Of a DNA stretch of 14,369 bases, positions 1 through 14,369 are shown in pieces. Position 1 is the first letter of the stretch, and every line of letters starts with the position of its first letter. Position numbers and translations under genes: made by a program. Under the pieces are notes generated by a model, which made no database searches, was not told the origin of the DNA, and worked only from the letters and a program-made list of their open reading frames with translations. Source of the DNA: Candidatus Omnitrophota bacterium (GTDB lineage: Bacteria; Hinthialibacterota; Hinthialibacteria; Hinthialibacterales; JAKPRU01); the NCBI GenBank assembly GCA_029570205.1, contig JAKQSI010000124.1:1-14369 (forward strand), given 5' to 3'.

Positions 1-171
1 ATTGTTTCCGCCACTGGACCAGTTAGGAGGAATACAGCCCCTCTCGGCGCAGCAGCGCCCCGATTTGCCCCGGTTGCGTACCCCTATCCGCTTGCCGCAC
101 AATTCCCGCCTTGTACTCCGCCGTAAAGCGCCGGCGATGGGGGAGTCTTTTCGTCTTCTTATCATCTCCAT
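1..171 (-). pseudogene. IS3-type transposase OrfA remnant (5' part, frameshifted and with a stop)
   Basis: Read on the minus strand from the ATG at 171, the sequence encodes an IS3-type OrfA start. Recognisable stretches are RRRFTAEYKAGIVRQAD and GALLRREGLYSS, followed by LVQWRK, which matches the helix-turn-helix N-terminus of the 'RRKFTAEYK...LLRREGLYSS' transposase group. A GGAGG Shine-Dalgarno sits just upstream. Two lesions are visible. A one-base loss in the A run (T run at 148-151 on the plus strand) separates the ATG frame from the homologous frame. An in-frame TAA (23-25) sits where a Gln or His codon is expected. The gene runs off the left edge, so a frameshifted OrfB may follow outside. 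The TGTCTCA at 211-217 could lie near the element's end, but I cannot confirm an inverted repeat. The plus-strand open frame across this stretch is a shadow. Confidence 0.75.
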
Positions 172-305
172 CTTTAACCTCCGTTTCTACACTAATTTCT
201 CACAGGAGGTTGTCTCAGGGAATGTTGGCACAGAGGGCCTGCCGGGGGAGGTGACCTGTTGGATAGCCAAAGGGTGACAGATTTGACGGAACGACAAAAA
301 CGGCC

Positions 306-377: not shown

Positions 378-3300
378 ATGGGGAACCTGAAAACCATCTT
401 CGAGACCTGCAAGCCCCGCCCCGATGTTGAGGCAGGGACCACAAGAGACGAGCAATTCGCGGCGGATCTGGCCCAGGTTATTCGGGGAACGGCCCCTCTG
501 GAATACCGGGACCCGGGAACGTTTTTTCGTCACACCTATCCAACACGGGGTCTGAAAGAGCTGCTGAAAGCCGTCTGCAAACGGGTCTCCGGCGCGGGCG
601 GCGAGGTTGCCTCCATCATCCGTCTTCATACGCAATACGGGGGTGGAAAGACGCACGGATTGATTGCGCTGGTCCATGCGGTTCACGGCATGGAAGGCGT
701 CCCGAATGTGAAGGAATTCATCGATCCGGATCTTCTGCCAGCCGGAGCGATTCGTGTGGCAGCGCTGGACGGGGAAAACAGCGATCCGGGGAATGGCCTG
801 ACGCTCGAAGGCAATCTGAGAGCGTACACCCTTTGGGGAGAACTGGCGTACCAATTGGCCGGGGTGAAAGGATACGAGCGGGTCAAGAAATCCGACCAGA
901 GCCATACGGCACCGGGTGCAGAGACTATCCGAGAATTGTTTGGGGGCGAGCCGACGCTGATCCTGCTGGATGAGGTCGCGGTGTATCTGCGCAAAGCGGA
1001 ACACGCCCATCCCGGAGCAAGCAAGCAATTCACTCCATTTATTCAGGCCCTTTTCAAGGCAGTCGAGTCTTCCCCGCAGGCAGCCCTGGTTTACACGCTG
1101 GCGGTGGGCAAGCACGACGAGGCAAAGGACGCCTATAAAGAGGAGCATGAACGCGCCCTGGAATCTCTCAATGAAGCGGAAAAGGTTGCTGCAAGGAAAG
1201 CAACACAGTTGAATCCCACCGAGGAAGATGAAACGGCGGATGTGTTACGACGCCGCCTGTTTGAGACGGTGGATCGGTCGGCGGCCAATGCCGTCATTTC
1301 AGCCTATTCCGATGTGTGGGGGAACAACAAGCATGTTATGCCGGATGATGTATTTACTCCGGAAACGAAGGAACAGTTTCGCCGGGCGTATCCGCTTCAT
1401 CCGGAAACTCTGGAGGTTCTCACGGAAAAAACGTCTTCCCTGAGTACGTTTCAGCGGATACGCGGCATGGTTCGATTGCTGGCCAAGACGGTCCACGTTT
1501 TGTGGAAGGATCGACCGGCGGATGTCTACGCGATCCATCCTCATCATATCGACCTCAGTTTCGGTCCCATCCGGGACGAAATCATAGTCCGGTTGGAGCA
1601 GGACGCTTACAATCCGGCGTTGAAAGCGGATGTGGCCGCTCTTCCGGGGGATGAGCCGGCACGGGCGGAGTTTCTGGATCAAAAACACTATCCCGGACAG
1701 ATCCCTGTCACCTCTTATATTGCCCGAACCGTGTTTCTCAACACGCTGGCGTTCGGCGATTCGGCAAAAGGCATCAACCTGGAACGACTGAATTTCTCAG
1801 TCTGTTCGCCGAAAGTGGAACCGAGTTTTATCGAGCAGGCGCGGGTGCGGTTTATCGAGGAAGCGCTTCATCTGGATGATCGACCGGGTGCGCCCATGCG
1901 GTTTATGGTCGAACCCAACCTGAACCAGGTCATCCGCAAACAGATGGAGGATGTGGACTCCGAAGATCTGAGAAATGAACTCCGTGAGCGGATTCGAAAG
2001 TTGTTCAGTGGGGGCAAGAGTCCGTTCAACCTGGTTGCATTCCCATCGGGTCCCTATGAAGTGCCGGATGAGGTGGGCGATGGACGTCCCTTGTTGGTCG
2101 TGCACTGGTATGAGGCTTTCCGTATTTCTGCGGAACCGAAGGGGCTTCCGCCTGAGATCGAGGAGATTTACCGATACAAAGGCGCGAACCAGGATTTCCG
2201 CGACTTCCGCAACAACCTGGTATTTGTTGTGGCCGATGAACGGAAAATCGAGAATATGAAAGATAAAATGCGGCGACATTTGGCGCTGCACGCTTTGCTG
2301 AAACCGGATCGCATTCGTGAACTGGTTGACCATCAACAGCGGAAAGTGAAGGAGGAGTCCGAAAACTCCAGTTTCCAGATTGCGGAGTCGATTCTTCATT
2401 GCTATCGCCACCTGTTCTATCCCTCGCATATACCCATGGCGGGATGTGAAGATCAGGTTGGCTATACGGTAATTGAGGTGACTCAAGCCAGTGACAGCCC
2501 CGGCGACGGGCAGAGGCATGTCGAACGCATCCTGCGGGAACAGAAGAAATTGCTCGGCGAAAATGACAAACCGGATGCCCCGACTTATGTCCGCGATCAG
2601 ACACCGCTCAAGACAAAAGGGGAAATATCGACCGCTACGCTACGCAACGAGTTCCGTCGGGCACCGAAATTGTCGATCCTCCTTTCCGATACGCCGCTGA
2701 AGGAATGTATTCGTGAGGGAATCGAACACGAGGTTTTTATTTACCGGGAAGGCAACCAGGTTTGGGGGAAAGGCGATCCGTCCCCGTCCATTCGGATCTC
2801 GGATGACGCCTTTGTTCACACTGTTGCGGATGCCAAAAAGAAGCGACTCTGGCCGCGAGCCGAGCCGTTGGAAGTCGATCTGTCGGTGTCACCCAGGCAG
2901 ATCAAGTTGGGCGAGAAGGCTGTATTGGCTGTGAGTGTGACCGGTGGAGTCAGCCCGTATACATACAGCAGCAATGAGTCGGCATTATGCCTATCGAACA
3001 CTTCCCAGGCCGTTGTAAAAGCTGAGGTGTCGCCGACAGAATCGACAACGTACACGGTCGAGGTCTCCGACAGCCACGGGCAGAAACAGACGGCAAAGGT
3101 GGATGTTTTGGTTGCGAGAGACGGCAAGCCACCGGAGCCTCCCAAGCCGCCGAAACCGCCCCAGAAGCCCGTGGAATTCACGACGGAAGGTCCATTGAAC
3201 CAGGCTTTGACCGAACTCTGGGAAAAGGTCCGCAAAGCCGATGTGAAGAGCATCCAGAAATTGATTGTGAAGTTTTATGAAGCATCTGCCGCATCGAAAG

Positions 3301-3617
3301 TTCACCTGGCAGTCGCTACCTTGCAGGATGTGGAGATTTCCTGTTGTTACGAGGTGAGCATTGAGGCCGAGGGAATCACGAGATTGGAAATCAAGTACGA
3401 AGGCAACGTCCCGAAAGCGAACCCGGTCCGGTCATTCCTGGATCAGCAGATACGATCATCGAAGGATTGTGATTTCGAGGCCGATTATACGATGGTTTTC
3501 CCGGAGGGCCTGTCATTGGCAAAAGGTGTGCCGGAAGCCTTCCAGCAGGACCTGACGCACTACGGTTCCGGTGAAGCTTATGTGGAGGCGTACGCTTCTC
3601 CACCCAAGGGAGCCTGA
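378..3617 (+). CDS. DUF499-type P-loop ATPase, defence-associated
   Basis: A 1079-residue cytoplasmic ATPase of the DUF499 type, related in kind to PglY/BrxC of BREX. Such proteins hydrolyse ATP and are found with DUF1156 methylases; their exact role is unknown. The N-terminus (LKTIFETCKPRPDV) is typical of the family. A Walker A-like motif, QYGGGKTH, lies at residues 86-93. Walker B is LILLDEV at 194-200, with D198 and E199. The middle (about 330-820) is a long helical/mixed region with no other motif I can name. Residues about 835-914 look like a β-sandwich Ig/PKD-type module (STTYTVEVSDSHG). A proline-rich linker (about 916-935, PPEPPKPPKPPQKP) then leads to a C-terminal domain of about 140 residues. 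No signal peptide or membrane segment is seen. The ATG at 378 follows GGGGGAAG, and the next gene starts 5 bp after the stop, so the two are probably translationally coupled. The BREX analogy is family knowledge; the role here is inferred. Confidence 0.85.
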   Translation: MGNLKTIFETCKPRPDVEAGTTRDEQFAADLAQVIRGTAPLEYRDPGTFFRHTYPTRGLKELLKAVCKRVSGAGGEVASIIRLHTQYGGGKTHGLIALVHAVHGMEGVPNVKEFIDPDLLPAGAIRVAALDGENSDPGNGLTLEGNLRAYTLWGELAYQLAGVKGYERVKKSDQSHTAPGAETIRELFGGEPTLILLDEVAVYLRKAEHAHPGASKQFTPFIQALFKAVESSPQAALVYTLAVGKHDEAKDAYKEEHERALESLNEAEKVAARKATQLNPTEEDETADVLRRRLFETVDRSAANAVISAYSDVWGNNKHVMPDDVFTPETKEQFRRAYPLHPETLEVLTEKTSSLSTFQRIRGMVRLLAKTVHVLWKDRPADVYAIHPHHIDLSFGPIRDEIIVRLEQDAYNPALKADVAALPGDEPARAEFLDQKHYPGQIPVTSYIARTVFLNTLAFGDSAKGINLERLNFSVCSPKVEPSFIEQARVRFIEEALHLDDRPGAPMRFMVEPNLNQVIRKQMEDVDSEDLRNELRERIRKLFSGGKSPFNLVAFPSGPYEVPDEVGDGRPLLVVHWYEAFRISAEPKGLPPEIEEIYRYKGANQDFRDFRNNLVFVVADERKIENMKDKMRRHLALHALLKPDRIRELVDHQQRKVKEESENSSFQIAESILHCYRHLFYPSHIPMAGCEDQVGYTVIEVTQASDSPGDGQRHVERILREQKKLLGENDKPDAPTYVRDQTPLKTKGEISTATLRNEFRRAPKLSILLSDTPLKECIREGIEHEVFIYREGNQVWGKGDPSPSIRISDDAFVHTVADAKKKRLWPRAEPLEVDLSVSPRQIKLGEKAVLAVSVTGGVSPYTYSSNESALCLSNTSQAVVKAEVSPTESTTYTVEVSDSHGQKQTAKVDVLVARDGKPPEPPKPPKPPQKPVEFTTEGPLNQALTELWEKVRKADVKSIQKLIVKFYEASAASKVHLAVATLQDVEISCCYEVSIEAEGITRLEIKYEGNVPKANPVRSFLDQQIRSSKDCDFEADYTMVFPEGLSLAKGVPEAFQQDLTHYGSGEAYVEAYASPPKGA

Positions 3618-3622
3618 TCGGG

Positions 3623-4105
3623 ATGAGACGGAAGATACAGGCCAATCGGAACGGTTCCGACCGTTCTTATTCCAACGATCCGTTGTATGAGCTGCGCTTG
3701 TCGGTCAAACGAGCGGGCGAGTGGCAATTGGAGATTTGGCAGTTGCCTTCCCCGGCAACGCCGCGTTTGAAAAGCCCGGAACCGGTCGCCGCTTTGAAGG
3801 GCACACCGTTGCGGATGATTGAAAACCGGGTGATCAAGCGGTTGTCGCGGGTCAAGATCAATCTGGGTGCAATGACGGCGGGCAAGAAGAAGACATGGCC
3901 GCTGGAGGAAGAATTGGCGCTGACTCTGGGCCTGCTGTTTCGCGCGTTGGCCCCGATGCGGAATCTCGACCGGATTCGACAGGTGGCCGATGGGATCGAA
4001 TCCATGAGCCGGGAAGAGGCGGCCTATTGGCTGGGTATGGCGATGCACCGGAAGTATCCCCGACGGGTTCTGGCGGCGCTGCGAACCCTGCTGACGATGC
4101 CGTAG
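3623..4105 (+). CDS. Small basic accessory protein, second gene of the DUF499 operon
   Basis: A 160-residue protein I do not recognise as a named family. It starts 5 bp after the DUF499 stop, inside a GATCGGGATG context, so it is very likely cotranslated with the ATPase and may bind it. The N-terminal part (about 15-45) looks β-rich (YELRLSVKRAGEWQLEIWQL). The centre is strongly basic (RVIKRLSRVKINLGA), and the last 70 residues look helical, ending in a lysine/arginine-rich segment (MHRKYPRRVLAALRTLL). There is no catalytic motif, cysteine cluster or membrane segment. Tight linkage to a DUF499 gene and an Arg/Lys-rich surface suggest a nucleic-acid-binding or adaptor subunit, but this is inference. 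It is in the position where DUF3780 genes sit in some DUF499/DUF1156 loci; I cannot show it is one. Confidence 0.7.
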   Translation: MRRKIQANRNGSDRSYSNDPLYELRLSVKRAGEWQLEIWQLPSPATPRLKSPEPVAALKGTPLRMIENRVIKRLSRVKINLGAMTAGKKKTWPLEEELALTLGLLFRALAPMRNLDRIRQVADGIESMSREEAAYWLGMAMHRKYPRRVLAALRTLLTMP

Positions 4106-4121
4106 GAGCGACGCGGTCGCA
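4102..4121 (+). repeat. Short REP-like hairpin overlapping the stop codon
   Basis: GTAGGAGCGAC is followed by GCG and GTCGC, giving a perfect 5-bp stem (GCGAC/GTCGC) with a 3-nt loop. The leading GTAGGAGC resembles the conserved head of REP elements in Pseudomonas and Xanthomonas. It overlaps the TAG of the preceding gene and lies just before the large repeat array. There is no T run, so it is not a classical terminator. Only this single copy is seen in the window. Confidence 0.35.
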
Positions 4122-4128
4122 CTTCCCC

Positions 4129-4208
4129 GTCATTCCGGCCCTTCTTCCGTCATTCCGGCCCTTCTTTCGTCATTCCGGCCCTTCTTTCGTCATTCCGGCC
4201 CTTCTTTC
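4129..4208 (+). repeat. Four tandem 20-bp units of GTCATTCCGGCCCTTCTTTC type
   Basis: Four near-identical 20-bp units start at 4129, 4149, 4169 and 4189. They differ only in the last bases (TTCC in the first, TTTC in the rest). Each begins with the same GTCATTCCGG half-arm used by the larger palindromic units that follow directly at 4209, but lacks the closing GCCGGAA arm. They look like collapsed or half versions of that repeat. The same 20-bp word recurs in inverted orientation downstream of the GIY-YIG gene. Confidence 0.9.
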
Positions 4209-4455
4209 GTCATTCCGGCGAAAGCCGGAACCCAGGCCGTGGTTCAGCGCCCGTCATTCCGGCGAAAGCCGGAACCCAGGCCGTGGTTCAGCGCCCGTCA
4301 TTCCGGCGAAAGCCGGAACCCAGGCCGTGGTTCAGCGCCCGTCATTCCGGCGAAAGCCGGAATCCAGGCCGTGGTTCAGCGCCCGTCATTCCGGCGAAAG
4401 CCGGAACCCAGGCCGTGGTTCAGCGCCCGTCATTCCGGCGAAAGCCGGAATCCAG
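4209..4455 (+). repeat. Tandem array of six 44-bp palindromic units
   Basis: Units start at 4209, 4253, 4297, 4341, 4385 and 4429; the last is incomplete. Each contains ATTCCGGC, GAAA, then GCCGGAA(C/T)CCAG, followed by a constant spacer beginning GCCGTGGTTCAGC. The arms form an 8-bp hairpin with a GAAA loop; copies ending GGAACC lose the outermost pair. The copies at 4341 and 4429 carry GGAATCC, the perfect form. Because 44 is not a multiple of three and no stop falls in any forward frame, open frames run through the array; these are not genes. The repeat resembles the Neisseria dRS3 class (ATTCC...GGAAT palindromes) in design. Confidence 0.95.
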
Positions 4456-4797
4456 CGATCCGGGGAAGCACAGTGAGTAAACAGCCTGCCGTATACATTC
4501 TGGCGAGCAAGAGAAACGGCACCCTGTATGTGGGCGTCACCTCAGACTTGGTTAAGAGAGTGTGGGAGCATAAGAACCATACGGCAGACGGGTTCACGAA
4601 ACGTTACAGGGTGAATCAGTTGGTCTGGTACGAGTTGCACAAGAATATGGAGTCTGCGATCATACGAGAGAAGAGAATCAAGGATTGGAAGCGGGAGTGG
4701 AAGTTGGAGCTGATTGAGAGCAAGAATCCGGATTGGCTGGATTTGTATGATACGATTTTATGATATGGTCTGGATTCCGGCTTTCGCCGGAATGACG
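4428..4797. mobile_element. Putative GIY-YIG cassette bounded by 28-bp perfect inverted repeats
   Basis: The innermost repeat on each side of the GIY-YIG gene forms an exact 28-bp inverted pair. The left copy is 4428-4455 (begins CGTCATTCC, ends GGAATCCAG) and the right copy is 4770-4797 (begins CTGGATTCC, ends GGAATGACG). The gene fills the interior: its GTG lies 17 bp from the left copy and its stop 6 bp from the right. This is the shape of a small repeat-bounded unit, but no target-site duplication can be recognised because more repeats flank it on both sides. Mobility is inference. Confidence 0.4.
4473..4763 (+). CDS. GIY-YIG family single-domain endonuclease
   Basis: A 96-residue protein made of one GIY-YIG nuclease domain of the YhbQ-like small family, which cuts DNA through a conserved Tyr, Arg and Glu. 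Visible motifs are VYI at residues 7-9, LYVGVTSDL (the YIG part, Y19 and G21), RVWEHK with R29, and the metal-binding Glu within IIREKRIKDW (probably E66). The tail NPDWLDLYD is typical of the family. I chose the GTG at 4473, with GGGGAAG just upstream. The frame stays open further upstream through the repeat array, and a longer protein from ATG 4239 would have a repeat-encoded, meaningless N-terminus. The gene is enclosed by inverted palindromic repeats, so its partner may be the repeat itself rather than the defence operon. The family is secure; the biological role is unknown. Confidence 0.88.
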   Translation: MSKQPAVYILASKRNGTLYVGVTSDLVKRVWEHKNHTADGFTKRYRVNQLVWYELHKNMESAIIREKRIKDWKREWKLELIESKNPDWLDLYDTIL

Positions 4798-4985
4798 AAA
4801 GAAGGGCCGGAATGACGGAAGAGGGATATGGTCTGGGTTCCGGCTTTCGCCGGAATGACGGAAGAAGGGCCGGAATGACGGAAGAGGGATATGGCCTGGG
4901 TTCCGGCTTTCGCCGGAATGACGGAAGAAGGGGGCGGAATGACGGAAGAGGGATATGGCCTGGGTTCCGGCTTTCGCCGGAGAGG
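4763..4985 (-). repeat. Inverted palindromic repeat array, about 63-bp period
   Basis: Three and a half copies of a compound unit start at 4763, 4826, 4889 and 4953 (periods 63, 63, 64). Each holds ATATGG, the palindrome in reverse orientation (CTGG(A/G)TTCCGGC, TTTC, GCCGGAAT) and a reversed 20-bp short unit. It is thus built from the same two words as the array upstream of the GIY-YIG gene, arranged differently and flipped. The last copy breaks off at GCCGG (4976-4980) and runs directly into the ribosome-binding site of the PIN gene. Confidence 0.93.
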
Positions 4986-4991
4986 TGAACC

Positions 4992-5465
4992 ATGAAGAGA
5001 AAGACCCGCATCTATGCAGATACATCCGTCTTTGGGGGCGTGGCCGATGAGGAGTTCAATGCCATTGCCTTCCGGTTCTTTGAAGAGGTCCGCGCAGGTC
5101 GGCATGTGCTCATCGTCTCGGAAATCACCGCGCGAGAGTTGCAGGATGCGCCCCTTGTGATCCGCCGATTTGTTGCAGGACTGCCCGAAGATGCGATGGA
5201 AAATCTCCCTTTCACACCTGAAATGCTGGAGTTACGGGATGCGTACCTGAGCGCAAAGGTCGTGGGTCGACGGTGGGGAGATGATGCCGCACACGTCGCT
5301 GCAGCAACCGTCACCCACGCAGACTTGATCGTTTCCTGGAACTTCCGACATATCGTGAATTGGGACAAAATCCGAGCCTTCAATGCGGTTAATCTGAGGC
5401 TCGGCTATCCGCTGATGACCATCCTGAGTCCAAGAGAGGTGATCACTTATGAAGAAAACCTTTGA
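4992..5465 (+). CDS. PIN-domain (VapC-like) toxin ribonuclease
   Basis: A 157-residue PIN-domain protein, expected to be a Mg2+-dependent RNase toxin. Acidic residues are where the family needs them: D10 in IYADTSVFGG, a glutamate in SEITAREL (E44 or E49), and D97/D98 in GDDAAHVAAAT. LIVSWNFRHIVN (about 112-123) is the conserved final strand and helix of this PIN group. The ATG at 4992 has GGAGAGGTG upstream; part of that Shine-Dalgarno is the broken end of a palindromic repeat. The gene overlaps the following small gene by 17 bp, the usual sign of a toxin-antitoxin pair, here in toxin-first order. It sits inside the defence operon, between the small accessory gene and the methyltransferase. 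Family confidence is high; toxicity is inferred. Confidence 0.88.
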   Translation: MKRKTRIYADTSVFGGVADEEFNAIAFRFFEEVRAGRHVLIVSEITARELQDAPLVIRRFVAGLPEDAMENLPFTPEMLELRDAYLSAKVVGRRWGDDAAHVAAATVTHADLIVSWNFRHIVNWDKIRAFNAVNLRLGYPLMTILSPREVITYEENL

Positions 5466-5634
5466 TTGTGTGGAAATGAAAAGAAAAAGTCAGGAAAGAA
5501 TCTATGAGGAAACCTGTGACTTCACACCCGATAAGGAGATCGCATACTTCCACAAGGCCGCGGAGGACTTCTGGAAAGAAATTCAATCATTGCGAGCGGA
5601 TGGGCGGCAAGAAACCGTCTCCGCAAAAATGTAA
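5449..5634 (+). CDS. Probable antitoxin partner of the PIN protein
   Basis: A 61-residue, charged, mostly helical protein whose start overlaps the end of the PIN gene. The N-terminus MKKTFDCVEMKRKSQERI resembles the small 'FDCVEMK' proteins found directly behind PIN genes of this type, so it is very likely the cognate antitoxin. GAGAGGTG lies a few bases before the ATG. The rest (TPDKEIAYFHKAAEDFWKEI) is an amphipathic helix pattern that could wrap the toxin. No DNA-binding motif is obvious, so autoregulation cannot be claimed. It ends 27 bp before the TTG start of the methyltransferase, so the pair is probably cotranscribed with it. Confidence 0.75.
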   Translation: MKKTFDCVEMKRKSQERIYEETCDFTPDKEIAYFHKAAEDFWKEIQSLRADGRQETVSAKM

Positions 5635-5661
5635 TCCTATCTTGATCGGGAGGTCCTGACC

Positions 5662-8568
5662 TTGCCTTCTCCTGATAAAACCCAACGCCCTCGACTCTTA
5701 ATCGAAGACTGGCTCCCCATCGCCGAAATCGGTCTTGAGAGCATTCGAGAGCGTACCCCGATGACTCCCTATCCCGCGCCCAATCGAATCCATGTCTGGT
5801 GGGCGCGGCGGCCCCTCGTGGCCAGCCGGGCAGCCATCCTCGCCAGCCTTCTCCCCGCCGACGCCGATCGGGAAATGTTTCTGCATATCCTGGGGATACA
5901 TGGAGATCCGGTGGGGGCGAGGAAGGCCATAGATCAGGCAGTACGGAATGGCGAACGAATTCAGAATCCATACGATTATGACCGGGCATTCAAGTATTCC
6001 CCGTCGAGCGGCGATCTAAATTGGATTGAAGATCGTAGTTCATTTCTCTCGGATAGTACTCATCAAACTGTGCTTGATCCCACCGCTGGAGGAGGCAGTA
6101 TTCCTTTTGAAGCAATCAGGCTTGGATTGGATTCGGTAGCCAACGAGTTGAATCCTGTGGCTTGGCTATTGCTGAAGTGTACGATTGAATTTCCAGTTCG
6201 GTTCGGAAACAGCCTACTTGATCGATATACACAGTTGGCAAAGATATGGCGACGTCGGATGGAAGATGAGGTCGGGCGTTTCTTCCCAAGACCTACGGAA
6301 TCGAATCGAGAAGAAGGCACTTACCTCTGGTCCCGCACGGTCACCTGCCCGTACTGTAACGGTCTTGTGCCGTTGTCGCCGAATTGGCGGCTGGACGGCA
6401 AAGGCAAAGGGGTGCGGCTGGTTCCGCATACCGAGAATCCCGATCACCGGTATTGCACATTCGAGATTGTAGAGAAACTCAAGGAACAGAGTCCGGGTAC
6501 CGTAAAAGGCGGCAACGGCCTATGCCCATACCCGGACTGCGGGCGGGGAATCCATGGCGATGAAATCAAAGCCCAGGCACAGGCCGGAAAGATGGGCCGG
6601 CAACTCTACACCATCGTCTACAAAGAAACCAAAGTCGTCGGCTACACAAAAACCGGGAAACCCAAGGTCAAGAAAATCCGTGGATTCCGCGCCCCACGCC
6701 CCGAAGACGATGTGGAAGAACAGGTCCGCAAAGCGCTCGAAGCAAAAATGCCCGAATGGCAGGCTCGAAATATCGTGCCGGATGAGGAATATCCCGCAAA
6801 TACAAATGATGATCGCCCCCGTCAATACGGTATGCCCCTGTGGCGCGATATGTTTGCCCCCCGCCAACTGTACGGCCATTGTGTCTCTGTTGAGGTGTTC
6901 CAGGACATGGTGGAAGAACTGCGACAAAAGAACGGCGAACTCTCCGAACTCGACAAAGCCGCCATGGCGTATATTGCTATAGCGATTGATAAGATGCTGA
7001 ATTACAACTCTATCCTTTCGAGGTGGGATCAATCGACCGGAAGAATTCGAAGCAAGTTTGATCGTCATGATTATGCATTCTTATGGAGTTACGGTGAGAT
7101 GGCTCCGACGATTACAGGGCTGGGGTATGACTGGGCGCTGAGATCTGGCGAGGAGGCGCTGGAAGAATTGATCAAGTTGCTGAACGGGGGACCGGCCTTT
7201 CAGTTACTGGATGAGACGGAGCAGTCGAACGGGAAAATACAGATTCGCCTCGGCTCGGCGGATGCGCTGGATCTGGAAGATAAGAGCGTGGACTGCATTG
7301 TGATGGACCCGCCATACTACGGCAATGTGATGTATGCGGAACTGGCGGATTTCTTTTATGTGTGGTTGAAACGGACGGCGGGATTGCTGTACCCGGAAGC
7401 GTTTGTCGATTACCTGACGGATAAGGACCGGGAAGCGGTGGCGAACCCGGCGAAGTTCAAGGGGAAACGGAAGGCGATGGACCTGGCGGGAGAAGATTAC
7501 CAGCGGCGCATGGCGGCGATTTTCAGGGAATGCCGACGGGTACTCAAGCCGCACGGAGTGATGACCCTGATGTTTACGCACAAGGCGAGCGGGGCCTGGG
7601 ATGCCGTTGCCAGGGGCCTGGTGGAGGCGGGATTTGTGATTACCGCATCCTGGCCGGTGAATACCGAGGCGGAAGGCAGTATGCACATCAGAGAGAAATC
7701 CGCCGCGAAAAGCACAATCTTCCTGGTGTGCCGCGTGCGCGAAACACGCCCGGAAGACAGCGATACTGTGTATTGGGAAGATATCGAACCGAAAGTGGCG
7801 GAAGCGGTGCGCCGCCGAATCGCCGAATTCCAGAACGCCGGAATCCGGGGTGTGGATCTGTATCTCGCCTCGTTCGGCCCGGCGCTGCAAGTGTTCAGTG
7901 AGGCCTGGCCGATACAACGGGGCCGTGCCGTTCAACGGTCCTCCGATCTCTTATACGAAGAATTCGATCCGTACTCGGTCAGTCCCGAAGATGCGCTGGA
8001 CGCCGCCCGGCGGGAAGTGAAACAATGGCGCATGGACCAACTCGCCACCATGAAGCGTCAACACCATCTGGACCCGGTAACCGAATGGTTTATTCTGGCC
8101 TGGGATGCCTTTCGAGCGCCGCGCTTCCCGGCGGATGAGGCCCTGAAACTGGCGCGCGTGGTCGGTACGGACTTCGACTCCGACATCAAGAACCGTTTCT
8201 GCGAAGTGAAGGGCAGTGACGCGATTCTCTGGGACAGCAGTCTCCGCAAACGGAAAGGGAGACTCGGCCCGGTGGGCGGGGCGGTGATGCTGGATACCCT
8301 GCACCGGGCGGCGGCATTGGGAATCGAGCAGAATACCGGCGCGGCGAAGGAGTTGATCGAGCAGGCCGGACTTGTGGACGATGCGACTTTCCTGACGGCG
8401 CTGGAGGCATTGCTGAATGTATTACCTCCAGGCGGATCTATGGCAAAAGGGAAATTGGAAGATGTCCCCCTGGCGGGCGCATCGAACGATTTTGAGGCGC
8501 TGGAGAAACTGCGGCGATTGGCGTTTACAGAAAAGGTCCCTGCTCCGCAACAGGCGTTGTTGTTCTAA
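5662..8568 (+). CDS. DUF1156-type adenine-specific DNA methyltransferase
   Basis: A 968-residue DNA methylase, expected to transfer a methyl group from S-adenosylmethionine to adenine N6. The N-terminus (about 11-65, LIEDWLPIAEIGLESIRER to WWARRPLVASRAAILASLLP) is the DUF1156 domain. The SAM-binding motif I is DPTAGGGS at 139-146 and catalytic motif IV is DPPY at 549-552. The roughly 400 residues between them hold a zinc-ribbon pattern: C229-x2-C232 and C288-x4-C293. I start at TTG 5662 because GGGAGGT lies at the right distance and DUF1156 follows at once. The protein ends in QALLF, which fits the bacterial sliding-clamp-binding consensus. Codon and base use vary along the gene: AT-richer near 5980-6340 and 6960-7110. 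It follows the antitoxin by 27 bp. In BREX, PglX-type methylases pair with a DUF499-like ATPase; the same pairing here supports a self/non-self marking role. The target sequence cannot be predicted. Confidence 0.9.
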   Translation: MPSPDKTQRPRLLIEDWLPIAEIGLESIRERTPMTPYPAPNRIHVWWARRPLVASRAAILASLLPADADREMFLHILGIHGDPVGARKAIDQAVRNGERIQNPYDYDRAFKYSPSSGDLNWIEDRSSFLSDSTHQTVLDPTAGGGSIPFEAIRLGLDSVANELNPVAWLLLKCTIEFPVRFGNSLLDRYTQLAKIWRRRMEDEVGRFFPRPTESNREEGTYLWSRTVTCPYCNGLVPLSPNWRLDGKGKGVRLVPHTENPDHRYCTFEIVEKLKEQSPGTVKGGNGLCPYPDCGRGIHGDEIKAQAQAGKMGRQLYTIVYKETKVVGYTKTGKPKVKKIRGFRAPRPEDDVEEQVRKALEAKMPEWQARNIVPDEEYPANTNDDRPRQYGMPLWRDMFAPRQLYGHCVSVEVFQDMVEELRQKNGELSELDKAAMAYIAIAIDKMLNYNSILSRWDQSTGRIRSKFDRHDYAFLWSYGEMAPTITGLGYDWALRSGEEALEELIKLLNGGPAFQLLDETEQSNGKIQIRLGSADALDLEDKSVDCIVMDPPYYGNVMYAELADFFYVWLKRTAGLLYPEAFVDYLTDKDREAVANPAKFKGKRKAMDLAGEDYQRRMAAIFRECRRVLKPHGVMTLMFTHKASGAWDAVARGLVEAGFVITASWPVNTEAEGSMHIREKSAAKSTIFLVCRVRETRPEDSDTVYWEDIEPKVAEAVRRRIAEFQNAGIRGVDLYLASFGPALQVFSEAWPIQRGRAVQRSSDLLYEEFDPYSVSPEDALDAARREVKQWRMDQLATMKRQHHLDPVTEWFILAWDAFRAPRFPADEALKLARVVGTDFDSDIKNRFCEVKGSDAILWDSSLRKRKGRLGPVGGAVMLDTLHRAAALGIEQNTGAAKELIEQAGLVDDATFLTALEALLNVLPPGGSMAKGKLEDVPLAGASNDFEALEKLRRLAFTEKVPAPQQALLF

Positions 8569-8592
8569 GCGTACCGAAAGGAGTGCCATACG

Positions 8593-8838
8593 ATGAAGAA
8601 CGTGGTTCTCGAAATCCCCGATGATCTGCTGGCATCTTTGAAGGTGCCTCCGGAGGAAACCGAGTCTCGTTTGCGCACGGAACTGGCGATCCGTCTCTAT
8701 CAGAAAGGACTGCTATCGTTCGGAAAAGCCAGACAACTCTGCGGTATGAGCAAATGGGAGTTTCATACTCTTCTGGGCAAAGAGGGAGTTTGTCGAGGCT
8801 ATGATTCCGAAGAGCTGCAAAGAGATTTGGCATTCTGA
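8593..8838 (+). CDS. UPF0175 family antitoxin
   Basis: An 81-residue protein of the UPF0175 family, small putative DNA-binding antitoxins usually followed by a PIN/DUF3368 toxin. VVLEIPDDLLASLKVP is the typical N-terminal strand and helix. LLSFGKARQLCGMSKWEFHTLLG (about 47-69) is the conserved helix-turn-helix-like core, and YDSEELQRDL is the usual ending, so the protein is full length. AAAGGAG sits upstream of the ATG, 24 bp after the methyltransferase stop. Its expected toxin is reduced to a tail directly downstream, leaving this antitoxin without an enzyme in cis. It may now act as a local transcriptional regulator of the helicase gene or cross-neutralise another PIN protein; both are inference. 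Confidence 0.85.
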   Translation: MKNVVLEIPDDLLASLKVPPEETESRLRTELAIRLYQKGLLSFGKARQLCGMSKWEFHTLLGKEGVCRGYDSEELQRDLAF

Positions 8839-8840
8839 TC

Positions 8841-8966
8841 TGGGCGAGGAGGGCCGGATTGATTGATTCGTTGAGAGTTGAATTGGATGCGCTTCGTGAC
8901 GAGGGGGATTTCCGGCTGAGTCAGCAGGTCTGTCGAGAGGCATTGAGAGCGGTCGGAGAGGAATAG
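8841..8966 (+). pseudogene. C-terminal remnant of a DUF3368/PIN toxin
   Basis: The frame ending at TAG 8964-8966 reads ARRAGLIDSLRVELDALRD, then FRLSQQVCREALRAVGEE. This is the characteristic C-terminal helix pair of DUF3368 PIN proteins ('GLI..vr..LD.L...GF.LS...y...L...GE'). About 40 codons survive. The catalytic PIN fold, normally about 110-120 residues, is missing, and there is no start codon with a ribosome-binding site. The remnant begins right after the UPF0175 stop (8836-8838), so the deletion removed almost all of the toxin while leaving its antitoxin intact. It is too short for most gene finders. Confidence 0.72.
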
Positions 8967-8968
8967 GC

Positions 8969-8996
8969 CTGGATTCCGGCTTGCGCCGGAATGACG
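8969..8996 (-). repeat. Solitary palindromic repeat, reverse orientation
   Basis: One 28-bp copy of the same repeat as in the arrays around the GIY-YIG gene: CTGG, ATTCCGGC (8973-8980), loop TTGC, GCCGGAAT (8985-8992), GACG. Both 8-bp arms are perfect. Read in the other direction the loop is GCAA, whereas array copies have GAAA. It starts 3 bp after the toxin remnant's stop and lies in the 90-bp gap before the helicase gene. Confidence 0.92.
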
Positions 8997-9056
8997 TAGA
9001 GAGAAAGAGATGACGGAGAGGGAAAACATTTCTGTCACGTAGACTGGGGGGCAATT

Positions 9057-12000
9057 ATGAGTGGTGAAGCGCCTTTATTGACCTGTTACACATGGAATAC
9101 CAGTTACCGTCACGAGGATGGGGATTTAATTTCTCTATTTTATGTTCCCGCCCTGTCCCGCGCCATTCGGTACGACCGAACGACAGGATTCTTTAATGCC
9201 GATGCGTTGGCGTTGGCAGCGCGGGGGATCGCCCGGCTGATTGAAAACGGCGGCGAAATGCGGCTGATTGTCGGATGTACGCTGGACGAAGACGAAGTCA
9301 GAGCCATTCAAGAGGGATATGCTTTACGGGAGAAAATCGCCGAGAAACTGGCTGCAACGCCCCTTGATCCACCCGACGTTACCGCGCGGAACGGTCTGGA
9401 AGCCCTGGCCTGGATGGTGGCCCATGAACGGCTGGATGTGAAAGTCGCTGTGCCGGTCGCTGCCGACGGAACCCCTGTAGTTTCGCATGGGATCTATCAC
9501 GAGAAAGTGGGCATTATTACGGATCGGGAAGGGAACCAGATCAGTTTCAGTGGGAGTATCAATGAGACGAAGGGGGGATGGATCGACAATCGCGAGAGTT
9601 TTCACGTGCATTGTTCCTGGGCGGGAGAGCGGGAAGCGCAGCATGTTGAAGATGAAGTTCGCGCGTTTTCGCGTCTGTGGGCCGACCGGATGATCACCGT
9701 GCGGATCTTTACTTTTCCGGAAGCGGCGAAACAGAGACTCCTTGAGTTCCTCCCGAAGGACGACAGACCCGTCAGAAGACCGACACAAGAACCGGGTGAG
9801 CCGCTGCCCGATGATAAACCGAATCCCTATTCACTCACACAAGATGAGAAACGTAGAGCGGTCTGGACATACATCCACAACGCAGCCCGCATGTGGAATG
9901 GGATGCAGGTGGGGGTGGTGACCTCATGCGTAAAGCCTTGGCCTCACCAGATGCGGACATTTACACGGATGCACCGGGGCTGGCCGTTCCGTCTGCTGAT
10001 CGCCGACGAAGTGGGCCTCGGAAAAACGATCACGGCAGGATTATTGATCCGTCAGGCGTGGCTGTCGGGCATGGCACGGCGAATCCTGATTATGGTTCCT
10101 GCCGGTATCCTGCATCAATGGCAGAATGAACTCTACGAGAAATTCAACCTGAATATGCCGATTTACGATGGGCAGCAACTTCTCTGGAAGCAAACCCACG
10201 GCCGGCAAGGCTCTCCGGAAAAGAAAGTCAGTCGCCACGAATGGCACGAAGAACCGTTTGTCTTGTGTTCCAGCCACCTGATGCGTCGCAGAGATCGGGT
10301 TCAGGATTTGCTGGAAGCGGACGATTGGGACCTGATCGTGCTGGATGAGGCGCATCATGCACGGCGGAAAGCGCCGGGGAGTCCCCAGGAAGGCGGGCCG
10401 AATGAGCTGCTGCGGTTGATGCGTGAACTGCGTTCCCGATGCCAGGCGCTGTTGCTGTTGACGGCAACCCCGATGCAGATTCATCCCATCGAGGTTTGGG
10501 ATTTGCTGAACCTGCTCGGACTGCCTCCCCGGTGGTCGGCAAGCGAGAATGATTTTCTCAGGTATTTTGAGACTGCTCGCGGGAATCCAAGCCACGATGA
10601 CATGAAATTCCTTTGCGAGATGTTCCGGGACACCGAATTGTTTTTCGGCCCTGTGGACGAGGGCGAATTGGAGAAAACTGTCCCGGAACTGGGCCGGTTG
10701 GGACGACAGAAGGTTCTGAAAGCCTTGCGAGACCAGAGCGGGATTCCGCTCAAGCGGTTGGAGACTAATACCCGGCAGGGCGCTCTCCGGGTTCTTCGGC
10801 GATTCAGCCCGATCCGTTTTCTGATGGCTCGGCATACCCGTGAACTGTTGCGGTCTTACCACAAGAGGGGGCTGCTCGAAACGCCGATTGCGACGCGCGA
10901 TCCTCGCGACATAGCGGTGAGTCTCTCCCGGGAAGAGCGGGCGCTTTACAACCGTGTGGAAGAATACATCAGCACAACTTACAACCGTGCCGCCCCGGAG
11001 AAGCGGACGGCAATCGGATTTGTGATGACGGTCTATCGCCGCCGTCTGGCCAGTTCTTTTCATGCGCTTCGATGCACATTAACCAATCGCCTGGCTCGGA
11101 GATTCGAACCTATCGACGAGGAGGATATTTCCCAGGACGAGATCCAGGAAGAAATCATGGACGCGGAATGTGCGTTCAGGCTGGCTCGCCAGTCCTGCGA
11201 AGATGAAGAGGACGCAGAAATCAAATCGATTCTGAAACAGATTGCACAACTGGGCACAGACAGCAAAGCCAGGGAACTGAAGTCCCAACTGGAGCGGATC
11301 TTCGCAGAGGGCTATGACTCGGCGCTCGTGTTTACACACTACACCGACACGATGGACTACCTGAAAGAGTATCTGGCCGAGCATTTCCCGGATAAGTCGA
11401 TTGCCTGTTATTCCGGACGCGGGGGAGAACGGCGGGATGGGAGCGGCTTATGGACGAAGTGCAGCAAAGAGAGTGTTAGGCAGGCGCTGAAACGAAAAGA
11501 AATCCGCCTTCTTGTTTGTACCGATGCGGCGGGTGAAGGCCTGAATCTTCAGTATTGCGGTGCGCTGATCAATTACGATCTGCCCTGGAATCCCATGAAG
11601 ATCGAGCAACGGATCGGGCGAATCGACCGGATTGGGCAGCAATACCCGATGATACGGGTCATCAATCTGGCTTATGAGAACACCGTTGAAGCCGATATTT
11701 ACTTTGCGCTTGCAAGGCGAATCAACCTTTTCCAGGGAATCGTCGGGAGACTTCAGCCGATCCTGTCCCGCCTGCCGAAAGAGTTTGAAAGGTTGACATT
11801 GCAGCCGCCTGCACAGCGCGATGCAGGGCAGGCGCGGTGTACCGCCGATATCGAACAGATGGTCGAGGAAAGCGAGTGTGTGGCCTTCGATATCGACGAC
11901 GCTGCAGAAGAAACTGCGGAGATCCCGGATCTGCCGGAACCGGCCCTGACCCTGGAACAGATCGACACGGCTTTGAACCGACCGGATATTCGCCCCCCGG

Positions 12001-12383
12001 AAATTGACTGGAAACCACTGGATTACCGATCCTACTCCCTGCAACTCCCCGGCATGTCCGAAGCCATTCGAGCGACGACAAGCAAAGATGTGTTCGAGGA
12101 TCATTTTGAGAGCCACGAATTTCTCTCACCGGGAGGGCATTTGTTTGCGGGCCTTGAGAAGGGCCACGTGAGCCAGGAAGTACAGTCTGATTCCGCCAAG
12201 GGGCATTTCTGGATAATCGAATCATCCGGGGGGAGGTCCTGTGAATTCATCGCCGTGACGCGGAACGGGCCCCGGCGAATCGAGACTCTCAACGATCTCC
12301 TGGCGAGCCTTGAGGATCTTGGCCCACCGGACAGACCGGACCCGTCGCAGTGGAAAGATCCGACGATCCGGTTGGTTGTTTGA
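9057..12383 (+). CDS. PLD-nuclease / SNF2-family helicase fusion, defence-associated
   Basis: An 1108-residue protein joining a phospholipase-D-like domain to a full SNF2-type (superfamily 2) DNA translocase. N-terminal PLD region, about 20-200: RYDRTTGFFNADAL, then HEK at 148-150 and GSIN at 166-169, the HxK...GSxN signature of PLD nucleases. One HKD-type half-site is seen, so an active enzyme would need a dimer. Helicase motifs: I, ADEVGLGKT at 316-324; II, DEAH at 430-433; III, TATP at 469-472; IV region, ALVFTHYTDTMDYL; V, DAAGEGLNLQ; VI, QRIGRIDRIGQ at 851-861. The last 150 residues have no motif I know. The ATG at 9057 follows a GGGGGG-type ribosome site. It is the last gene of the locus. 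SNF2 helicases (DrmD) and PLD proteins (DrmC) occur as separate subunits in DISARM; this fusion plus DUF499/DUF1156 partners points to a DNA-targeting effector. Effector role is inferred. Confidence 0.9.
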   Translation: MSGEAPLLTCYTWNTSYRHEDGDLISLFYVPALSRAIRYDRTTGFFNADALALAARGIARLIENGGEMRLIVGCTLDEDEVRAIQEGYALREKIAEKLAATPLDPPDVTARNGLEALAWMVAHERLDVKVAVPVAADGTPVVSHGIYHEKVGIITDREGNQISFSGSINETKGGWIDNRESFHVHCSWAGEREAQHVEDEVRAFSRLWADRMITVRIFTFPEAAKQRLLEFLPKDDRPVRRPTQEPGEPLPDDKPNPYSLTQDEKRRAVWTYIHNAARMWNGMQVGVVTSCVKPWPHQMRTFTRMHRGWPFRLLIADEVGLGKTITAGLLIRQAWLSGMARRILIMVPAGILHQWQNELYEKFNLNMPIYDGQQLLWKQTHGRQGSPEKKVSRHEWHEEPFVLCSSHLMRRRDRVQDLLEADDWDLIVLDEAHHARRKAPGSPQEGGPNELLRLMRELRSRCQALLLLTATPMQIHPIEVWDLLNLLGLPPRWSASENDFLRYFETARGNPSHDDMKFLCEMFRDTELFFGPVDEGELEKTVPELGRLGRQKVLKALRDQSGIPLKRLETNTRQGALRVLRRFSPIRFLMARHTRELLRSYHKRGLLETPIATRDPRDIAVSLSREERALYNRVEEYISTTYNRAAPEKRTAIGFVMTVYRRRLASSFHALRCTLTNRLARRFEPIDEEDISQDEIQEEIMDAECAFRLARQSCEDEEDAEIKSILKQIAQLGTDSKARELKSQLERIFAEGYDSALVFTHYTDTMDYLKEYLAEHFPDKSIACYSGRGGERRDGSGLWTKCSKESVRQALKRKEIRLLVCTDAAGEGLNLQYCGALINYDLPWNPMKIEQRIGRIDRIGQQYPMIRVINLAYENTVEADIYFALARRINLFQGIVGRLQPILSRLPKEFERLTLQPPAQRDAGQARCTADIEQMVEESECVAFDIDDAAEETAEIPDLPEPALTLEQIDTALNRPDIRPPEIDWKPLDYRSYSLQLPGMSEAIRATTSKDVFEDHFESHEFLSPGGHLFAGLEKGHVSQEVQSDSAKGHFWIIESSGGRSCEFIAVTRNGPRRIETLNDLLASLEDLGPPDRPDPSQWKDPTIRLVV

Positions 12384-12435: not shown

Positions 12436-12707
12436 TGATTTCTCAAAGGTGAATTCAAGATGGGTTTTCACACATCGATCGACGGTATTCCTGAGGTACA
12501 GGATAAGCATAGGCGGTTTAACAATGGACGCAAGACATCGTCCATTGTTGAAAGAAATGCAAAGAAGATTCTAGCGTACCGCCCTTGGGTGACGGCAAGG
12601 GCGACCGTGTGCCCTGATACGGCGTGGGCTATCAAAAAATCTCTTCTATATTTTGACCGACTGGGATATACTCATGTGGAGTTCGCTCCTGTAGAGGGAA
12701 TGGATCG
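12436..12707 (+). pseudogene. Internal fragment of a radical-SAM (SPASM/maturase-like) protein
   Basis: The frame from about 12436 (first ATG 12460) reads MGFHTSIDGIPEVQDKHRRF and later LAYRPWVTARATVCPDTAW and RLGYTHVEFAPVEG. The 'SIDG...DK.R.F.NG' followed by 'R.TV.P.......F...G......EPV' pattern is the middle of radical-SAM enzymes such as anaerobic sulfatase maturases and peptide maturases. The part that should carry the CxxxCxxC iron-sulfur motif is absent; an in-frame TGA and the helicase gene lie upstream. At about 12700-12707 the similarity ends and reversed transposase sequence begins, so the C-terminus is gone too. Could also be a diverged member of another radical-SAM subgroup. Confidence 0.55.
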
Positions 12708-13530
12708 GATGTCCCGTAGAATGCCTTGATTCGCAGGTGTTGCTTCATCCATTTGAAGAAGAGTTCCACTTGCCGGCGGGCTTGGTACAGGTTGGCAAGG
12801 GTGAGCGCTGGTAACGTGAAGTCGTTTGTCAGGAACACCAGGCGGTGGTTTCTCTCTCCATCGAGGTAGCGAATACGCCGCAGTGTGCCGGGATAGTTTT
12901 TTCTGGAATAGAAACCGCCCGGGATAATGGTTTGATCGCATTGAAGGCCGGTCGACTTGTCTACTCGATGGGAATAGAGGCGATGGAAATCGAAATTCTT
13001 TTTGGCCCGGGTCACAAAAAATGCGGAGGATTGATGAATGCGATAGAGACGGGCAAAATCGAGATAGCCTCGATCCATCACATAAATCGCGCCTGGCTCC
13101 AACAGCAGATCGTCGAGGATATGGACATCGTGAACCTTTCCATGAGTAAGAATGACAACGGTGGGAAGGCTTCCGCGCAAATCGAGAAGGGTATGAAGTT
13201 TAATCGCCCCCTTGTGCTTGCGAAACGTGGCCCAAGGGAAAAGCGACAAACACAAGTCGATCGTGGTAGAATCCAAAGCATAGACGGTTTGGTCGAGTTC
13301 CATTCCGAAATCGTCGTGGGCATACAGATCACGAGCCGTGTGAATGAGTCCTTGGGCAAAATCGGCATAAAGTTGCCAGGGACGGGTATCGTTTGCGTCG
13401 GCTAAGGTACTTCGGGAAACTTTGCCTCGAATGCCGGCATGATAGAGTTTGGGCTGTAACGCGCGTAAACAGGTTTCGATATCTCGAAGGCTTTCGCGAT
13501 AGGTGAGTTGGGCAAAAGCCATACGGCGAA
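12708..13530 (-). pseudogene. IS4-family DDE transposase, truncated at both ends
   Basis: Read on the minus strand, about 274 uninterrupted codons from MAFAQLTYRESLRDIE to HLRIKAFYGTS match the IS4-family (DUF4372-type) transposase. The DDE residues are still there: the first Asp in YALDSTTIDLCLSLFPW, the second in YVMDRGYLDFARL, and the Glu in YQARRQVELFFKWMKQ. The first 50-70 residues (normally ...FAQLMDFIP... and ...CWDQF) and the C-terminal tail after FYGTS are replaced by unrelated sequence: antisense of the DUF932 gene on one side, antisense of the radical-SAM fragment on the other. The open frame therefore extends from 13753 to 12632 but those ends are not transposase. No terminal inverted repeats remain, so the element is immobile. 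Plus-strand open frames here (such as 12845-13405) are shadows. Confidence 0.85.
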
Positions 13531-13555
13531 TCCCAAGAAAAGGAGGTATCGTCCG

Positions 13556-14369
13556 ATGATGAATAATTCTCTCCGTACCCTGGGTGAAGTCCGAGCCGAG
13601 GTGAACCGCATGTCCGAAACCTATTGGGATGAGGAGATTCCTGTTCGAGACTTGAAATTCGACAGTCTGGACACGATACGGATTGACGGAGAACCCCATC
13701 GTCTCAAACCCATCGCCCAGAAATGTATTGCCTGGCGATTGGGGATGCCTCACGGCTACTTACAAAAATGTGATTGTGACCTTCAGTCGATCAATCTGAA
13801 CAGATGGCTACCGGAAGAGAGGAATGAAAACCTCTTCTTCCGGTTTGAAGGCCAGGATGTTCGCGCCATTTTCACTCCCCGCTATACCCCGTGTGACAAT
13901 CCCGAAGTGCTGAGCCGTTTGGATTCCTGCGGGTACGGTGATGGAACCGAAGTGCAGTGCAAACTCGACGATGAATTTCTCATGCTGAACATTCCGGACA
14001 GAGACCGAGAATTCCGTCTCAATGGCAAAGAAGAAATGCAACCGGGGGTCTCCATCAGCAATTCCGAGGTGGGTCTGGCCAGTTTAACCATCTCGGCGTT
14101 CTGCCTTCGTCTCATCTGTACCAACGGAATGGTATCCAAGACATCAGTCGATGCTTCGTACCGGCATGTCTCTGTCCGGATCCTCAAGGAGTTCCCGGAG
14201 GTATTGAATAGAACCTCGCAGGACCTGGACCGCCAGAGGAGGCAATGGGAGATCTCTGTGGAAAGTCCGGTGGCGGACCCGGAGATGACCCTCAAAGCCT
14301 TCAATCCACAATTTGAACTCGGAAAGAAGGAGCAAGACGCGGTGGACTGGGCCTGGCCCCAGGAATCCG
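13556..14369 (+). CDS. DUF932 (phage/plasmid-like) protein, cut by the window edge
   Basis: An open frame of 271 codons with no stop before the window ends. It has an excellent AGGAGG (13541-13546) in front of tandem ATG codons at 13556 and 13559. The stretch PGVSISNSEVGLASLTISAF (about 163-182) followed by CLRLICTNGMV is the hallmark of DUF932 proteins, which occur widely on plasmids, integrative elements and phages and have no established biochemical function. Other visible parts are IAQKCIAWRLGMP (about 51-63) and FTPRYTPCDNPEVL. The N-terminus looks complete. The gene's upstream region is only the truncated IS4 transposase, so its promoter is either in the narrow 13531-13545 gap or within the IS remnant. 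It suggests the window's right part belongs to a mobile element. Confidence 0.8.
   Translation, partial: MMNNSLRTLGEVRAEVNRMSETYWDEEIPVRDLKFDSLDTIRIDGEPHRLKPIAQKCIAWRLGMPHGYLQKCDCDLQSINLNRWLPEERNENLFFRFEGQDVRAIFTPRYTPCDNPEVLSRLDSCGYGDGTEVQCKLDDEFLMLNIPDRDREFRLNGKEEMQPGVSISNSEVGLASLTISAFCLRLICTNGMVSKTSVDASYRHVSVRILKEFPEVLNRTSQDLDRQRRQWEISVESPVADPEMTLKAFNPQFELGKKEQDAVDWAWPQES

Follow-up and report, generated by a model that had tools for sequence, protein, structure and literature searches.

A widespread DUF7680-marked branch of the DUF499-centred restriction-like systems

What kind of system is encoded by four plus-strand genes for an AAA+ ATPase, a small protein, a DNA methylase and a nuclease-helicase fusion? 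The genes lie in a window of 14,369 nucleotides (the whole stretch of DNA analyzed), which is one of 131 contigs in a fragmented assembly (93% complete, 4% estimated contamination). The original prediction read them as a hybrid of the BREX and DISARM defence systems. We find instead that the locus is a separate, widespread branch of a described restriction-like class, marked by the protein family DUF7680. The DUF499 family to which it belongs is a large and recently described class of restriction-like systems, and the DUF7680 branch presents a clean four-gene core. Its hallmark protein is undescribed in the literature searched: no paper there names DUF7680.

The four core genes are intact. Their coordinates, frames and motifs were verified together with the predicted domains, and all four open frames are on the plus strand and free of internal stops. 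The small accessory protein of the original prediction is present, and its identity, missed earlier, is Pfam DUF7680.

378..3617, plus strand: DUF499 AAA+ ATPase (BrxC/HmaC-like), 1079 aa; PF04465, E = 5.9e-48, 164 bits against a cut-off of 23
3623..4105, plus strand: DUF7680 protein, 160 aa; PF24728, E = 8.9e-43, 146 bits
5662..8568, plus strand: DUF1156 DNA methyltransferase with N6_N4_Mtase domain, 968 aa; PF06634, E = 1.6e-15; PF01555, E = 9.9e-7
9057..12383, plus strand: HKD (PLD) nuclease-SNF2 helicase fusion, 1108 aa, proposed effector; PF00176, E = 9e-19; PF00271, E = 1.1e-16

The ATPase retains Walker A (GGGKT) and Walker B (LILLDE, of the form LxDE) motifs that are conserved across its relatives, among which the C-terminal third is poorly conserved. 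In the methylase, whose DUF1156 match (PF06634) scores 57.5 bits against a cut-off of 24, motif I (DPTAGGGS; DPTxGGG in relatives) and motif IV (DPPYY, residues 549-553) are conserved, and there is a cysteine-rich, zinc-finger-like insert. The helicase motifs DEVGLGKT, DEAHH, TATP and QRIGR are intact and conserved across relatives, as is, within the clade, the HKD motif (HEK...GSIN at aa 148-169; HEK...GSxN in relatives); the PLDc_2 match (PF13091, E = 4.4e-4, 20.5 bits) lies under the Pfam cut-off. RapA is the top PDB match of the helicase (1e-36). PADLOC models, a check proposed with the original prediction, gave HmaC as best for the ATPase (377 bits) and HmaB as best for the methylase (252 bits), with the helicase matching BrxH, PLD_Helicase and PbeA.

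Conservation and placement of the module

The four genes are linked far beyond chance. The DUF7680 protein was the sole query in a search of 84,980 species genomes, so that linkage to the other core genes was not presupposed. This returned 80 independent loci. Of these, 77 have a named phylum, and they represent 11 phyla (Pseudomonadota 37, Acidobacteriota 16, Cyanobacteriota 8, Thermodesulfobacteriota 4, and seven others). Upstream of DUF7680, at a distance of 300 bases or less, lies the end of a DUF499 ATPase gene in 74 of the 76 loci that have enough upstream sequence for this test. Downstream there is usually the methylase and then the helicase; at least three loci (L048, L053 and L056) have the pair in divergent arrangement instead. 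The gene order that the original prediction proposed to look for in other genomes is thus conserved.

Across 23 four-protein sets, 22 loci plus the window, the pairwise distances of each core protein correlate with those of the others (r 0.69-0.96, Mantel p 0.001). Trees built for the ATPase, the methylase and the helicase concur that locus L010 is the sister of the window, and they share several groupings that mix phyla. Together, the correlated distances and concurring trees indicate that the four genes are inherited as a unit. They form one conserved module, in which not all genes are neighbors. Positions 4106-5661 separate DUF7680 from the methylase with tandem palindromic repeats, a GIY-YIG gene, and a PIN-like gene accompanied by a possible partner of 61 aa; methylase and helicase are separated by a UPF0175 gene.

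DUF7680 is also present on six plasmid records and three contigs from a viral collection. In an annotated locus on a Sinorhizobium plasmid, the gene order is DUF499, hypothetical protein, DUF1156, helicase. Diverged DUF7680 proteins of about 200-210 aa characterize a second group (L174:6246-19501 and L175:5347-18972), which keeps the gene order unchanged and sits beside the main DUF7680 clade in trees.

The closest described kind of system is the DUF499-centred, Hma-type group of BREX-Related (BR) systems, chiefly its Type 2. That the general type would prove known was correctly anticipated. In their comparative study, Rakesh & Krishnan 2026 (PMC12839542) unite such loci in one class of three types: Type 1 (Hma), in which the helicase bears a C-terminal PD-(D/E)XK restriction endonuclease; Type 2, in which the helicase carries an HKD nuclease at its N-terminus and a stand-alone DUF3780 occurs in 98% of taxa; and Type 3, with PglZ and iSTAND. 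The window has the general BR features of a DUF499 ATPase with Walker motifs, a DUF1156-DPPY methylase and a Swi2/Snf2 helicase, and these three proteins are co-inherited and homologous to the core trio of BR/Hma systems.

With Type-2 BR the locus shares a DUF499 ATPase, a small protein, a DUF1156 methylase and an HKD-SNF2 helicase in identical order. It differs in carrying DUF7680 where Type 2 has DUF3780, and in the tree position of its other core proteins. The best NCBIfam models are the “anti-phage-associated” DUF499, DUF1156 and phospholipase-D families NF042962/NF042963/NF042964, at 182/235/387 bits, far below the equivalog cut-offs of 1200/1000/1100. In small, unrooted trees that include references from Gammaproteobacteria and elsewhere, ATPase, methylase and helicase each set the DUF7680 loci in a clade by themselves (SH-aLRT 100), apart from DUF3780 loci and HKD-less loci; the HKD-less references are pooled since the PglZ search gave no sorting into Types 1 and 3. 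In the ATPase and helicase trees, DUF7680 and DUF3780 loci lie on one side, away from the HKD-less loci. Every DUF7680 and DUF3780 helicase examined has the HKD motif, as against none of the 10 other DUF499-linked helicases. The lack of DUF3780, the scores under the curated cut-offs and the tree position thus place the locus outside strict Type 2. The composition, which had been thought possibly new, is so in one respect: DUF7680 replaces DUF3780.

Hma, or Type-1 BR (PADLOC Hma, PMC8565338), likewise combines a helicase, a methylase and a DUF499 ATPase, and supplies the top PADLOC models for two of our proteins, HmaC and HmaB. However, the window's helicase has the HKD motif and branches apart from HKD-less helicases, and the fourth gene here is DUF7680. 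Type-3 BREX (BrxC, BrxXI, BrxHII) has a homologous ATPase, methylase and RapA-like SNF2 helicase according to PMC12839542, but its feature is PglZ. The original prediction had noted that PglZ is missing from the window, and a PF08665 search of the 93%-complete genome also gave no match. DISARM shares the SNF2 helicase superfamily (DrmD) and a PLD domain (DrmC); here, in contrast, PLD is fused to the helicase, and there is no DrmA or DrmB (DUF1998) gene among the annotated window genes. Scores against curated DrmD-type models were 275 bits for a cut-off of 610 and 203 bits for one of 950.

DUF7680 and DUF3780

DUF7680 and DUF3780 form a natural pair for testing whether small proteins that both lack annotation share one job. 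Annotated DUF3780 loci have the identical gene order, with DUF3780 in the slot of DUF7680. Among 321 gammaproteobacterial genomes, DUF499 was found in 24, DUF3780 in 6 and DUF7680 in 5; the two small proteins occurred together in none of these genomes and in none of the loci examined. A Pfam search of the window's genome found no DUF3780, and the same model does match in gammaproteobacterial genomes. We regard DUF7680 and DUF3780 as positional equivalents, and probably functional ones too.

The two proteins agree in the predicted order of their secondary-structure elements. An AlphaFold2 model of DUF7680 (72 sequences, pLDDT 88.8) has the predicted order E-E-E-H-E-H-H-H-H, and all nine elements recur in unchanged order, with helices of similar length, in the DUF3780 model (24 sequences, pLDDT 85.5). 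The extras of the DUF3780 model are a short helix after strand 2 and one more at the C-terminus; PMC12839542 gives DUF3780 four strands and five helices. Homology of the two families is likely. We do not claim sequence homology, since a reversed profile scores as well as or better than the DUF7680-DUF3780 match and the helix-by-helix profile score ranks 12th of 120 permutations. Aligning the two families with hhalign gave P values of 0.011, 0.07, 0.034 and 0.064 depending on the setting, the 0.011 in a different and probably wrong register.

A Foldseek search of the DUF7680 model against PDB and BFVD returned nothing significant. VIA-align gave Z scores up to 6.0, and the four rows that exceed Z 5 align no more than 66 residues; these matches were set aside as relatives because they resemble common helical arrangements.

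The variable slot

The region between DUF7680 and the methylase is variable among loci. It spans <150 bases in 12 of 60 loci and >1000 bases in 45 of 60. In those 12 the methylase directly follows DUF7680 downstream of the ATPase, so compact versions of the system could be cloned as they stand. In the window, the slot and the intergenic region before the helicase contain the following features.

4106..5661, no strand: variable slot that separates DUF7680 from the methylase; in other loci empty or holding other cassettes
4128..4455, plus strand: palindromic repeats in tandem, first of 20-bp and then of 44-bp units, upstream of the GIY-YIG gene
4473..4763, plus strand: single-domain GIY-YIG endonuclease, 96 aa; PF01541, E = 6.4e-17
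4762..4981, minus strand: the palindrome of 4128..4455 in inverted orientation, 63-bp unit x 3.5
4992..5465, plus strand: PIN-like protein, possible VapC-type toxin; acidic motifs read in the sequence; PF01850, E = 0.078, below the cut-off
5449..5634, plus strand: 61-aa ORF overlapping the PIN-like gene, from its position a possible antitoxin partner
8593..8838, plus strand: UPF0175 small protein, intact, outside the core, between methylase and helicase; PF03683, E = 6e-28, 97 bits

At 4128-4981, inward-facing arrays of the palindrome (CATTCCGGCGAAAGCCGGAA) bracket the GIY-YIG gene. The palindrome pattern has 62 copies in the genome, mostly scattered singly, with nine flanking the GIY-YIG gene. 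Gene and arrays might form a mobile or repeat-associated nuclease unit. A PDB search with the PIN-like protein gave no PIN match, and a Pfam search gave none for the 61-aa ORF. The UPF0175 gene is followed by an apparent 3' remnant of a partner gene, and a further palindrome copy lies at 8974-8993.

In related loci, other defence genes are frequent in this slot, and its occupants include PtuA/PtuB (Septu), NsnB/NsnC with a GmrSD_N protein, Schlafen AlbA_2 proteins, AAA-ATPase/PD-(D/E)XK proteins, IrrE-like proteins, and a metallo-beta-lactamase gene with two small partners. Defence genes embedded in Hma loci have been reported (PMC12255303, PMC12111858), Septu among them (PMC12255303), and backup effectors are already described in BR loci. 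The slot is a place to seek further defence genes. The metallo-beta-lactamase-like trio is a candidate embedded defence module; its proteins (about 239, 203 and 371 aa, the last being metallo-beta-lactamase-like) lie at L089:10405-12830, with similar trios in L024, L029, L044, L047 and L083. Neither small member has a PADLOC match, and the 203-aa member is also without a Pfam match. A protein of about 980 aa (cluster c4) recurs near the core in L024, L040, L050, L051, L057 and L063, and its L057 representative has just a weak PADLOC mad8 match (E 1e-5). ORC-CDC6-like and TPR families also recur among slot proteins.

Proposed function and alternatives

The locus quite probably encodes a restriction-modification-like anti-phage system of the DUF499-centred BR (Hma) kind, in a DUF7680-marked branch, with defence and methylation read from sequence. 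RM-like logic has already been proposed for Type-2 BR in the comparative study (PMC12839542), and family matches and intact motifs support the earlier reading of a self-contained RM-like defence locus with the PLD-helicase as its likely cutting arm. In such a system, the DUF1156 methylase would mark host DNA, most likely at adenine-N6, with cytosine-N4 also fitting the DPPY motif. The DUF499 ATPase, together with DUF7680 as adaptor or reader, a role that is our guess, would inspect incoming DNA. Unmarked DNA would then license the HKD-SNF2 protein to translocate and cut, and the PIN-like pair in the slot may act as an optional second line of defence. Each HKD-SNF2 chain holds a single HKD motif, so that, by the general pattern of the PLD superfamily, two chains probably pair to form one active site. 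HEK...GSxN proteins need not, though, be nucleases.

We lean somewhat towards DUF7680 marking an undescribed fourth DUF499-centred lineage, which spans at least 11 named phyla, is about as common as DUF3780 in the Gammaproteobacteria sample, and would combine a lineage-specific sensor or adaptor with a slot that takes up defence modules. It is possible, if rather doubtful, that the locus is instead an ordinary Type-2 BR system in which DUF7680 is a DUF3780 diverged beyond recognition, making a separate subtype needless. The shared slot, mutual exclusion, identical predicted element order and similar helix lengths all fit such divergence, as do the HKD motif in both helicase groups and the ATPase and helicase trees, which put both groups of loci on one side, away from HKD-less loci. 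Against this, the profile match is no better than that of a reversed profile, and the three core proteins form a separate clade far under the NCBIfam Type-2 cut-offs.

The proposed anti-phage role has its own competitor in a methylase-helicase locus outside defence, for example in chromosome maintenance or regulation, or a decayed defence remnant. Repeats and other insertions in the slot, with an IS4 transposase and a radical-SAM fragment bordering the locus, would fit such a reading; yet all core frames and motifs are intact, the distribution spans phyla, plasmids and some viral contigs, and related loci embed known defence genes, which together make a non-defence or remnant locus unlikely. 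Most improbable of all is that recombination joined BREX and DISARM modules into a true hybrid. The BrxC-like ATPase and a helicase that matches the BrxH, DrmD and PLD_Helicase models fit such an origin, but loci in many phyla share this composition as a unit inherited together. The core proteins are BR/Hma homologues, the HKD-SNF2 fusion is a described Type-2 BR feature (PMC12839542) and not a DISARM part, the DrmD score falls far below its cut-off, and the 93%-complete genome gave no PglZ match. The hybrid reading is thus not supported.

Parts of the first 240 bases of the window (1-239) recur elsewhere in the genome, on about twelve further contigs and in several of these at the contig end, as in a repeat or insertion element. 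Downstream, a fragment of a radical-SAM peptide maturase-like gene (12460-12729), matched only by the middle of the PapB model, adjoins an IS4-family transposase on the minus strand (12632-13753, 227 bits). A DUF932-matching open frame (13508-14369) continues past the window end.
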